From contig CANFQO010000004.1 of the NCBI GenBank assembly GCA_947449135.1, positions 59,613 to 123,612 of the forward strand: a stretch of DNA of 64,000 nucleotides, read 5' to 3'. The notes beneath the pieces were generated by a model. That model saw only the letters and a program-made list of their open reading frames with translations, was not told the DNA's origin and searched no databases. Source of the stretch: Planctomycetaceae bacterium. Its GTDB lineage: Bacteria > Planctomycetota > Planctomycetia > Pirellulales > UBA1268. Shown here piece by piece: positions 3,207 to 59,494 of the stretch; position 1 is the first letter of the stretch; each line of letters begins with the position of its first letter. Both the position numbers and the translations under genes were made by a program.

Positions 3207-3327
3207 GCTCAAGGAGCCGGGGGTCGGGGGAAGCCGGAGCGAGTCGGGCTGTCCTGCCCTCGAGCCGGAGCCTCTCCGCCGCCGGGGCAGCGGACGCAGT
3301 CCTGTCACCGCCCCCCGCGGCTTGGGC
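3207..3327 (+). repeat. Dispersed intergenic repeat family A, copy A1
   Basis: gagccgggggtcgg(g)ggaagccggagcgagt...ctgtcaccgcccccc.cggcttgggc; aligns without gaps to 8131-8243 with about 14 mismatches in about 114 nt (counted by eye). Confidence 0.85.
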
Positions 3328-3452
3328 CAATCTGCCGCAAAACGTTGTTCACGTCGGCTCCGGAATCACGCGACGAACTGCCGTCGACCAGGAGGGCACC
3401 GGGGGGATAGGCTGTTTGGCCTCGGTTTCTCCTCGCCGCGAAGGGATGCGCC

Positions 3453-8123: not shown

Positions 8124-8271
8124 GTGAAGGGAGCCGGGGGTCGGAGGAAGCCGAAGCGAGTAGGGCTATCCTGCCCCCGAGTCGGAGCCACTCCGCCGCA
8201 GGGGCGGCGAATGCAGTCGTGTCACCGCCCCCGGCGGTTTGGGCTACTCGACATCTTCCATATGCGCTCTA
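8124..8271 (+). repeat. Dispersed intergenic repeat family A, copy A2
   Basis: Near-identical to A1 over the core; continues to tatgcgctctaga, which includes the stop codon of the downstream minus-strand gene (shared with A3). Confidence 0.85.
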
Positions 8272-44600: not shown

Positions 44601-46007
44601 ATGCGTCTGTTTTCCACGCAGGTTCTTGCCATCGTGACCCTGGCATGTCTGCCCTTCAGCCTGTCGCAGACGACAGCCGCCGCCGATGCAGGCCCGCCGA
44701 ATGCCGTGCAAATGACGATCGATTTCCTCACGCGAGATGACGCCAGCCTCCGTGCGATTGGTCTCGAACGAGTCCGTTATGGTCTCAAAGGGCAGGAGTC
44801 CACACAGCAACTGGCCGGGCTCCTCCCGAGGCTCGCTCCGGCACGCCAGCTCGAATTGACCGCGGCGCTGTCCGACCGCGGTGATCGCGCCGCCCTGCCG
44901 GCCTTGCTGGCCCTGCTCCAGTCATCATCCGATGCGGCGGTGCGGGCGACGGCGGTTCAGGCGGTGGGTGTGCTGGGCGGTGCCTCCGAAGTCCCCGTAT
45001 TGACGAAATCACTCGCCGCCGCCGACCCCGAGAAATCAGCGGCACGCCGCGGGCTTGCCGTTGTTCGCGGAGCCGAGGCCACAGCATTGATCACCGCAGC
45101 TGCTAAGCAGGGGGACGCCGAAATGCGATCCACCCTGATCGATATTCTTGCCGATCGACGAGCCGTGACCGCCCTGCCCGACATGGTGACCGCTGCCGTC
45201 GCAGACGACGCCACGGTCCGAACCGCGGCGATGAGGGCAATCGCCCGATTTGGTGGCCCCGACCAGGTCGTTGGTATGGTGCAGGGCGTTCTCAAGGCGG
45301 CCGCCGGCGGCGAACGCGATGATGCGGAACGTGCCCTGGTGACGGTGTGCACACAAAACCCTCGTCACGAACAGTCCGCGGCGATCTTTATCGAGCAGTT
45401 CAAATCGGCCGATGATCAGACCCGCGAAATGCTCCTGCCAGCCCTCGGCCGCGTGGGTGGCGCCGGTGCCATCGCCATCGTCGATGGCCTGATCGCCGAC
45501 ACCAATGCAGCCAAGCGGAAACTCGGCCTGACGGCCCTGACGAAATGGCCCGACGCGACGGTCTCCGATCGGCTGCTCGACCTGCTCGGCAAGGCACAGG
45601 ATCCCGACGAACGCGAGCTCCTGCTCGGTGCGCTGATCCGCATCGCTCCCCTCCCCGACAACAAGCTCAACAACCAGCAGAAGCTCGAACTGCTCCAGAA
45701 GACGATGACCCTCTGCACTGGTGACGAGGATCGCCGCCGCGTGCTGGAGCGAGCCAACGCCATTCGCCTGGTCGAGACGCTTCGGTTTGTCGTGCCCTAC
45801 CTCGATGATCCGAATCTGGCGGAGCCTGCGTGCCTGAGCGTGGTCGAACTTGCGCACCATCGCAATCTCCGGGATTCCAATAAGGAAGAGTTCACGAAGG
45901 CACTCGACAAGGTGCTCGAAACGACGAAGAACGAAGAACTCGTCGATCGGGCCACCCGCTACAAACAGGGCCAGACCTGGGAGCGGAAGAAGCCGGCCGG
46001 AAGCTGA
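44601..46007 (+). CDS. Secreted HEAT-repeat protein
   Basis: Signal peptide MRLFSTQVLAIVTLACLPFSLSQTTAAADA; repeated SDRGDRAALPALLALLQSSSDAAVRATAVQAVGVLGGASEVPVLTKSLA units. Confidence 0.82.
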   Translation: MRLFSTQVLAIVTLACLPFSLSQTTAAADAGPPNAVQMTIDFLTRDDASLRAIGLERVRYGLKGQESTQQLAGLLPRLAPARQLELTAALSDRGDRAALPALLALLQSSSDAAVRATAVQAVGVLGGASEVPVLTKSLAAADPEKSAARRGLAVVRGAEATALITAAAKQGDAEMRSTLIDILADRRAVTALPDMVTAAVADDATVRTAAMRAIARFGGPDQVVGMVQGVLKAAAGGERDDAERALVTVCTQNPRHEQSAAIFIEQFKSADDQTREMLLPALGRVGGAGAIAIVDGLIADTNAAKRKLGLTALTKWPDATVSDRLLDLLGKAQDPDERELLLGALIRIAPLPDNKLNNQQKLELLQKTMTLCTGDEDRRRVLERANAIRLVETLRFVVPYLDDPNLAEPACLSVVELAHHRNLRDSNKEEFTKALDKVLETTKNEELVDRATRYKQGQTWERKKPAGS

Positions 46008-46121
46008 ATACACGCAAATACTGGCCATTCAGGCCAGATTCTGCTTGGCCGGCCTCCGCCGGCTGATGCTGCGCGTGACGTCCTGTCATGCAGAGTCTCT
46101 CGAATCGCGAGCCGCGGCATC

Positions 46122-46286
46122 TCCAGATGCTGGGGAGCCGGTCGGAGGCACGCGCAGGATCCGGTGCACTTTGACTGCGAGAGTTGACTCACCACGCGAG
46201 TCGAGCATATGTCGTCACACCGCAGGTGGGTCGGAGACCTCAAGTCCGCCGGCGACGAGCATGCCGCAGCCGGCGAACCAATGTGG
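46122..46286 (+). repeat. Dispersed intergenic repeat family B, copy B1 (variant middle)
   Basis: ccagatgct...gagccggtcggaggcacgcgcaggatccggtg at the 5' side and gtccgccggcgacgagcatgccgcagccggcgaaccaatg at the 3' side shared with B2/B3; middle differs. Confidence 0.85.
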
Positions 46287-51679: not shown

Positions 51680-52810
51680 ATGCACGTGAGCAGCCCTCCT
51701 GACGCTGACGCCTCCGATGAAGAACTGATGCGACGGGCCCTTGAATTGGCCCGCCGCGGCGAGGGACGGGTCGAGCCCAATCCGATGGTGGGGGCGGTGA
51801 TCGCGTCAGCTTCCGGCGGCCACGTCATCGCCGAGGGTTGGCACTCAGCTTTCGGTGGTCCGCACGCGGAGGTGGCGGCGCTTTCCGCCGCCGGCGCGGC
51901 GGCACGCGGCGGCACGCTGGCCGTCACGCTGGAACCATGCTGCCATCACGGCAAGACGCCCCCTTGTACGGCCGCGATCATCGCGGCCGGTATCGCCCGG
52001 GTGATCATCGCGACCAGCGATCCCTTTCCCGCCGTCAACGGTGGCGGCATCGACGCACTCCGACGAGCCGGTATCGAGGTCCGGACTGGCGTCTGCGAGC
52101 AGGCTGCACGGCGGCTGACTGCCCCCTTCCGCACGGTCGTGGAGCAGAAACGCCCCTGGTTGATCGCGAAGTGGGCGATGAGCCTCGACGGCCATGTGGC
52201 CACGGCGTCCGGAGAGAGCCGCTGGATTTCTTCGGAATCGTCGCGTGCGATCGTGCATGAGCTTCGTGGACGGATGGACGGCATCCTCTGCGGCATCGGC
52301 ACCGTTCTCGCCGATGATCCGCTGCTGACGGCCCGGCCAGCCGGACCACGGCAGGCGCTGCGGATCGTCCTCGACAGCGCGGCCCGTCTGCCGATCGAGA
52401 GCCGGCTCGTCCATACCGCCCGCGAGGTGCCGGTGCTCGTGGCCACGGGCCCGGCGGCTCCGACAGACCGTCTCCGGGCGCTGGCGTCTGCTGGCTGCGA
52501 CGTCTGGCAGGCGGCTGCCGCGGATCCACGAGACCGACTGCACGAGCTGCTCGCAGAACTGGGATCACGCCGGCTCACGAACGTGCTCGTGGAAGGCGGC
52601 CCCACGGTGCTCGGCAGCCTGGCTGATTCCCACGCAATCGACGAGGTCTGGGCCTTCATCGCCCCGACGATCATTGGCGGCGCGGCGTCCCCGTCACCGA
52701 TTACCGGCACCGGCATCGCAACGCTCGCGTCAGCCGCCTCAATCGAGATCGAGCACACAGAACACCCCGGTGGCGATCTCTTCATCCGCGGCGTCGTGCG
52801 ACGCGGATAA
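51680..52810 (+). CDS. ribD: Bifunctional riboflavin biosynthesis deaminase/reductase
   Basis: MRRALELARRGEGRVEPNPMVGAVI, HAEVAALSAAG, VTLEPCCHHGKTPPCTAAIIAAGI, KWAMSLDGHVATASGESRWISS, VEGGPTVLGSL. Confidence 0.96.
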   Translation: MHVSSPPDADASDEELMRRALELARRGEGRVEPNPMVGAVIASASGGHVIAEGWHSAFGGPHAEVAALSAAGAAARGGTLAVTLEPCCHHGKTPPCTAAIIAAGIARVIIATSDPFPAVNGGGIDALRRAGIEVRTGVCEQAARRLTAPFRTVVEQKRPWLIAKWAMSLDGHVATASGESRWISSESSRAIVHELRGRMDGILCGIGTVLADDPLLTARPAGPRQALRIVLDSAARLPIESRLVHTAREVPVLVATGPAAPTDRLRALASAGCDVWQAAAADPRDRLHELLAELGSRRLTNVLVEGGPTVLGSLADSHAIDEVWAFIAPTIIGGAASPSPITGTGIATLASAASIEIEHTEHPGGDLFIRGVVRRG

Positions 52811-52897
52811 GCACCAGCCGATCGACGTTGGCCAAGCGCTGACTCCAGCCGGGCATCCGCCCGACATTGCGACACGATGTCGTGTTTCGCTTAAAAC

Positions 52898-53026
52898 CAG
52901 ATGCTACCGAGCCGGTCGGAGGCACGCGCAGGAGTCGGTGAATTCTGCGACTCACGAGCGATGCGCGATTCGTCCAAGAGCCTCCCGTAGCAGAATCCGC
53001 CGGCGACGAGCATGCCGCAGCCGGCG
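52898..53026 (+). repeat. Dispersed intergenic repeat family B, copy B2
   Basis: gagccggtcggaggcacgcgcaggagtcggtgaattctgcgactcacgagcgatgcgcgattcgtccaagagcctcccgtagcagaatccgccggcgacgagcatgccgcagccggcg; about 95% identical to B3 by eye. Confidence 0.9.
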
Positions 53027-59315: not shown

Positions 59316-59445
59316 GAGGAGCCGGTCGGAGGCACGCGCAGGAGTCCGGTGAATTCTGCGACTCATAAGTGATTCGCGATTCGTCCAAGAGCCTCCCGTA
59401 GCAGAATCCGCCGGCGACGAGCATGCCGCAGACCGGCGAACCAAT
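59316..59445 (+). repeat. Dispersed intergenic repeat family B, copy B3
   Basis: gagccggtcggaggcacgcgcaggagtccggtgaattctgcgactcataagtgattcgcgattcgtccaagagcctcccgtagcagaatccgccggcgacgagcatgccgcagaccggcgaaccaatg. Confidence 0.9.
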
Positions 59446-59494
59446 GCGGGCGGCTCAGGAGGCCTTCAGCGACGGAGGCCCCATCCGCTGACTG

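Follow-up and report, generated by a model that had tools for sequence, protein, structure and literature searches.

The window, that is, the whole stretch of 64,000 nucleotides analysed here, carries three copies of a dispersed repeat that we call B (B1, B2, and B3; Table 1), each lying between convergent genes. B2 stands behind a gene that we take to be ribD and B3 behind one that is presumably pheT, both names being recognised from translated sequences rather than by a family search. A preliminary description of this DNA had reported the three copies, with B2 and B3 about 95% identical and B1 sharing their 5' and 3' blocks around a different core. The copies are present as described (46122-46286, 52898-53026, and 59316-59445), the identity of B2 and B3 is 95%, and B1 has its conserved blocks at 46131-46162 and 46245-46281, with a longer core between them that constitutes a fourth core type, common to copies on contig C91 of the genome to which the window belongs (G000) and contig C113 of G002. 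The inverted pair TTCTGC...GCAGAA noted at the same time is real and reads, in B2, as ATTCTGC (52942-52948) and GCAGAAT (52990-52996). Within the 5' loop block of B2, GGCA pairs with TGCC at 53013-53016, and GC at 52926-52927 pairs with GC at 53010-53011.

Table 1. Copies of the B repeat in the window, the parts of copy B2, and its upstream neighbours
Feature	Position in window	Strand	Remarks
B1, full copy	46121..46286	+	head GATGCTGGGG, tail AACCAATGTGG, long core type T4
B2, full copy	52898..53026	+	core type T1, then alternative tail GGCTGGTTTCAGCACGCAGC (to ~53075)
B3, full copy	59316..59449	+	core type T1, tail AACCAATGCGG
B2 outer helix, 5' strand GCCGG	52911..52915	+	pairs with CCGGC 53021-53025; covariation counts, helix 1
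B2 outer helix, 3' strand CCGGC	53021..53025	+	covariation counts, helix 1
B2 5' conserved internal-loop block GGCACGCGCAGGAGT	52921..52935	+	invariant alignment columns
B2 3' conserved internal-loop block GCGACGAGCATGCC	53003..53016	+	GAGCA invariant in 41/41 diverse copies
B2 inner and core stem, 5' strand CGGTG-A-ATTCTGC	52936..52948	+	two-sided pair changes between copies
B2 core and inner stem, 3' strand GCAGAAT-C-CGCCG	52990..53002	+	two-sided pair changes between copies
B2 exchangeable loop	52949..52989	+	differs from copy to copy
Companion hairpin modules upstream of B2: CCGGGCATCCGCCCGA, CGACACGATGTCGTG	52804..52897	+	dispersed in the genus themselves

Other repeats share the window. 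The hairpin modules that form a chain upstream of B2 are also found alone in all genomes of the genus; the ~100 bp directly upstream of B1 (46000-46103) belong to another, distinct dispersed repeat, 84 to 88% identical at several sites in G000 and G004; and a further pair of 120 nt (3213-3332 and 8130-8249) is 87% identical, both members being intergenic.

B1, B2, and B3 are 3 of the 42 full copies in their own draft genome (3.69 Mb in 169 contigs, 96% complete), which holds about 10 partial copies besides; these are figures after merging of the matches from nucleotide searches, of which there were 45 with B2 as query and 52 with B1. As a whole-element match recurs at all these full and partial sites, with E-values down to 1e-57, the repeat is not a product of chance. 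Among the partial copies are 5' blocks strung together with other hairpin modules in short tandem arrays (contigs C8, C9, C42, and C46). Many contigs of the assembly (C4, C42, C48, C70, C77, C84, C90, C137, and C140) break off no more than about 250 bases from a B copy, so that repeat chains probably interrupt the assembly and the copy numbers are to be read as minimum values.

Nucleotide matches were found in 9 of the 59 genomes searched, the own genome included, across four genera, and a covariance-model search of 72 genomes from a single planctomycete family gave matches in 31 of them, spread over five genera. With that model at least 50 copies are counted in G017, and G015 holds 7, both genomes being 95 to 96% complete; subfamilies are genus-specific, and copy number shifts abruptly between related genomes. 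Among 298 genomes drawn from the class, matches occurred only in members of that planctomycete family. Scanning named genomes for the pattern yielded 92 stretches, and among the matches listed all belong to planctomycete MAGs or to lake MAGs whose labels, 'Kuenenia' for example, are doubtful. A phage or plasmid origin was rejected, since the viral contigs and phages searched gave no match and the plasmid search gave a single marginal, partial match of 41 bases. A search of Rfam 15 returned no covariance-model match at gathering scores, and for B2 none at E up to 5; likewise, no description of the family was found in the literature searched. B is a previously unnamed family of repeats of about 130 bases (~130 to 165 bp), present in dozens per genome in freshwater planctomycete bacteria. 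Its members are intergenic, dispersed, structured, and mosaic, and the family is new to Rfam 15.

The structure is best documented by covariation. RNAalifold, applied to 34 and then to 41 copies, predicts one long imperfect hairpin. In the alignment of 41 divergent copies, made with MAFFT without structure and itself the source of the predicted hairpin, 97.5% of the pair cells are standard pairs against 89.7% after shuffling, double-sided compensatory changes occur in 16 of 27 pairs against 6.2 in shuffled alignments, and two-sided change cells number 78 against 15.1; none of 500 shuffles reached the observed covariation values. The signal is lost when the pairing partner is shifted by 1 to 3 columns, a control that carries the caveat of a structure predicted from the same alignment. 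Minimum free energies, lying only -0.5 to -1.8 SD from those of dinucleotide shuffles, were set aside as weak evidence because the sequence is GC-rich, and covariation was used instead.

Changes that preserve pairing are seen in the middle of the element. Core stems occur in G000 as ATTCTGC/GCAGAAT, CTTTGC/GCAAAG, CTTTGAC/GTCAAAG, and CTTTGCC/GGCAAAG, and in relatives as ATTGC/GCAAT, TGTGTG/CTCACA, and CGTGTG/CTCACACG; the first, third, and fourth of the G000 variants, together with the longer B1 type, represent at least four middle types in which the two stem halves change together. The inner helix similarly varies between CCGG, CTGG, or TTGG on one side and CCGG, CCAG, or CCAA on the other. 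Two internal loops, GGCACGCGCAG and CGAGCA, are near-invariant in sequence and, to judge from this conservation, look like a recognised motif.

The ends of the element are sharp. Across 124 copies, information content departs from background some 12 bases ahead of the GAGCCGG block and is back at that level some 12 bases past CCGGCG, so the boundaries first proposed for the element were close to right. The usual head, GATGCTGAGG, is present in 99 of these 124 copies and the usual tail, AACCAATGCGG, in 91, and a second tail, GGCTGG..CAGCACGC, accompanies core types T1 and T2. The terminal inverted ends are imperfect, becoming nearly perfect over ~17 bp in some g4/g10 copies, and the covariance model gives the reverse complement a score as well. 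No target-site duplication signal was found, the longest word shared by the two flanks being no longer than in permuted pairs.

Whether one strand is the functional one can be approached from the mismatches and the folding energies. Non-canonical stem cells in 128 unique copies are G-T in 162 cases and A-C in 8, cell counts that include related copies; by column only 12 pairs lean to G-T and 4 to A-C, and the excess is thus suggestive rather than proof. Folding with DNA parameters makes the written strand the more stable one in 33 of 41 copies; with RNA parameters this holds for 21 of 41 and neither strand is favoured. The G-T excess and the DNA energies together hint at one functional strand.

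When the copies are placed into genomic context, a marked preference is evident. With gene calls from a simple codon-based caller trained on the window, 107 copies fall between called genes, 42 of them in convergent, 60 in tandem, and 5 in divergent gaps. The gaps that hold no copy number 28 convergent, 98 tandem, and 70 divergent (p ~1e-10 for the comparison). No more than one copy falls within a called gene. B copies sit almost only behind gene ends and avoid genes and divergent promoters. Within tandem gaps no orientation bias was found (31 versus 29), and a strand-specific cis-acting RNA was rejected on this ground. A family of trans-acting non-coding RNAs, present in multiple copies and with its own promoter, would account for the RNA-like covariation, for internal loops that stay near-invariant over several genera, and for the tolerance of G-U pairs in the written strand; we nevertheless consider it unlikely, as orientation relative to genes is unbiased, no Rfam relative was found even at E up to 5, copy number changes abruptly between related genomes, and the flanks are unconserved beyond ~12 bp, which argues against a shared promoter. 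Given the absence of both an orientation bias and an Rfam match, a hairpin of single-stranded DNA fits at least as well as one of RNA.

Comparison of orthologous positions reveals both turnover of whole sites and exchange of cores. In the sister species G003 the B1 and B2 sites are empty, the aligned flanks being separated by 11 bases and 3 bases, and in G004 it is the B3 site that is empty; the empty sites are without the whole intergenic chain, so that no clean single-element insertion was seen, and in other species the same intergenic gaps hold unrelated hairpin modules. Where orthologous copies are shared, their cores may differ within matching flanks. The B1 site in G004 has a CTTTGC core, the B2 site has core T2 in G004 and T1 in G001, a site on contig C96 of G000 has a T1-like core against T2 in G004, and an orthologous pair in G001 and G002 has CTTTGC in one copy and ATTCTGC in the other, the inner helix differing correspondingly. 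These differences are most simply explained by an exchange of modules in which the two halves of a stem move together, and they could also be independent insertions.

A role retained by the host could be considered from the same data. In enterobacteria, a host-kept function at gene 3' ends, spread by recombination, has been proposed for BIMEs. Applied to B, the copies would be 3'-end structures that attenuate transcription, stabilise mRNA ends, or bind proteins between convergent genes, and recombination would be the main means of their spread. The strong preference for gene 3' ends with avoidance of promoters would follow, as would the 100% identity of two orthologous copies over ~165 bp, set in flanks of 89 to 95% identity. 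Purifying selection on random insertions also leaves promoter avoidance, however, and the high identity of shared copies may reflect gene conversion. As copies are moreover often absent at orthologous positions, and the hairpin is followed by no T-run and is thus not an intrinsic terminator, we regard a host-kept structure as rather doubtful.

REP-like repeats in bacteria are usually explained by RAYT transposases. A single Y1_Tnp gene, of RAYT type, was found in G000, and the inverted conserved ends, variable spacer, compensatory hairpin, and 3'-end placement of B match what is described for REPINs and tagged REPs (PMC3116915, PMC3733652), as would be expected if B were a classic REPIN mobilised by a transposase of the RAYT (Y1/HUH) type. 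The RAYT genes of G000, G003, and G009 are, on the other hand, flanked by AAATGGGGACGGGA..GAATTT instead of B ends, and no Y1_Tnp gene was found in the B carriers G004 (72% complete), G015, and G017, draft assemblies in which genes can be hidden. In addition, no conserved GTAG, GGAG, or CGTC tag is present: the GGAG of the 5' block can also read GGGG, and the ends have no invariant tag. With neither the tag nor a cognate transposase found, the family is not filed as RAYT-REPIN, a RAYT was rejected as the mobiliser, and this origin appears quite improbable. As a separate observation, the RAYT-type gene of G000 (L091, G000:C148:3742-4083) is flanked by AAATGGGGACGGGACTGAATTTCC, apparently its own REP, with similar ends in G003 and G009.

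RNA-mediated, SINE-like copying by a reverse transcriptase could be expected to yield structured, possibly strand-asymmetric elements in high copy number such as these. An RVT_1 domain was not found in carriers G000-G004, G007, G013, and G015, an absence at the level of the assemblies, and no target duplication was found either; a reverse transcriptase was accordingly rejected as the mobiliser, and we give SINE-like copying very little credence. More generally, no transposase with matching B ends was found, and nucleotide matches in G007, a better-assembled carrier among fragmented assemblies, include no widely spaced pair of B ends.

B can be compared with several known systems. BIMEs and BOX-like elements are mosaics of exchangeable modules, and B is similarly a mosaic, chained with other hairpin motifs in intergenic regions; its sequence is unrelated, however, and its covarying stems show that exchange keeps both stem halves together. 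Like MITEs, B is short, non-autonomous, and multi-copy, and its ends are inverted, if imperfectly; neither a target-site duplication nor, in these fragmented assemblies, a partner transposase with the same ends was found. REPINs, or REP doublets, are short, intergenic, non-autonomous repeats with inverted conserved ends, a variable spacer, a compensatory hairpin, and species-specific subfamilies (PMC3116915), all of which B shares; B differs in having no conserved tetranucleotide tag, in its longer, asymmetric halves with invariant internal loops, and in its presence, with no cognate RAYT found, in genomes where no RAYT gene was found. The GTAG- and CGTC-tagged REPs, planctomycete ones included, are stem-loops of 20 to 40 bp with short loops and a tag (PMC3733652). 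B resembles them in convergent and tandem placement, and the CGTC families are likewise without a dedicated transposase (PMC3733652), but it is longer, at ~130 bp, its loop spans ~41 bases or more, and it carries no tag.

Taken together, we consider it probable, at roughly 60%, that B is a non-autonomous dispersed hairpin repeat, REPIN- or BIME-like in architecture and behaviour, which is moved by an enzyme and whose modules recombine. One strand folds into the long imperfect hairpin, and the near-invariant internal loops (GGCACGCGCAGnnG facing nnCGAGCATG) would probably be the recognition site for a putative trans-acting enzyme, which may copy or paste the element via a single-stranded hairpin intermediate. 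Insertion would be into tolerated places, mostly behind gene ends, and resident copies could then trade cores and tails by ectopic recombination with both stem halves kept together. Observation covers the dispersal, the structure and sharp ends, the intergenic placement at gene 3' ends, the random orientation, the gain or loss between sister species, and the coordinated core differences at orthologous sites. What we infer is that an enzyme acts in trans, that the intermediate is single-stranded DNA, and that cores are swapped by recombination. The preliminary description had likened B to a non-autonomous mobile element or a structured RNA family rather than decayed coding sequence, which is borne out by further copies, covariation, and boundary conservation. 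Mobility, as we infer it, is supported by the dispersal, the species-specific subfamilies, and the empty orthologous sites, but not by target-site duplications or a mobilising enzyme, neither of which was found; of the RNA proposal the structure holds, while orientation and the Rfam search lend it nothing. A bolder version, which we hold only tentatively, is that B represents a class of mobile hairpins several genera old, whose mover would be neither a RAYT nor a reverse transcriptase and would read the two conserved loops, the stem tops being swapped with the strands kept complementary.

The B family is copy-rich and strongly covarying, has its own recognisable loops, and is present in genomes with no detected RAYT and often no detected reverse transcriptase; the spread of tag-less REP-like elements thereby becomes testable within one clade, and the covariance model can be used for annotating these genomes. 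At G007:C1:83368-83471, one B copy seems to have its 3' block repeated four times, at intervals of ~22 bases.
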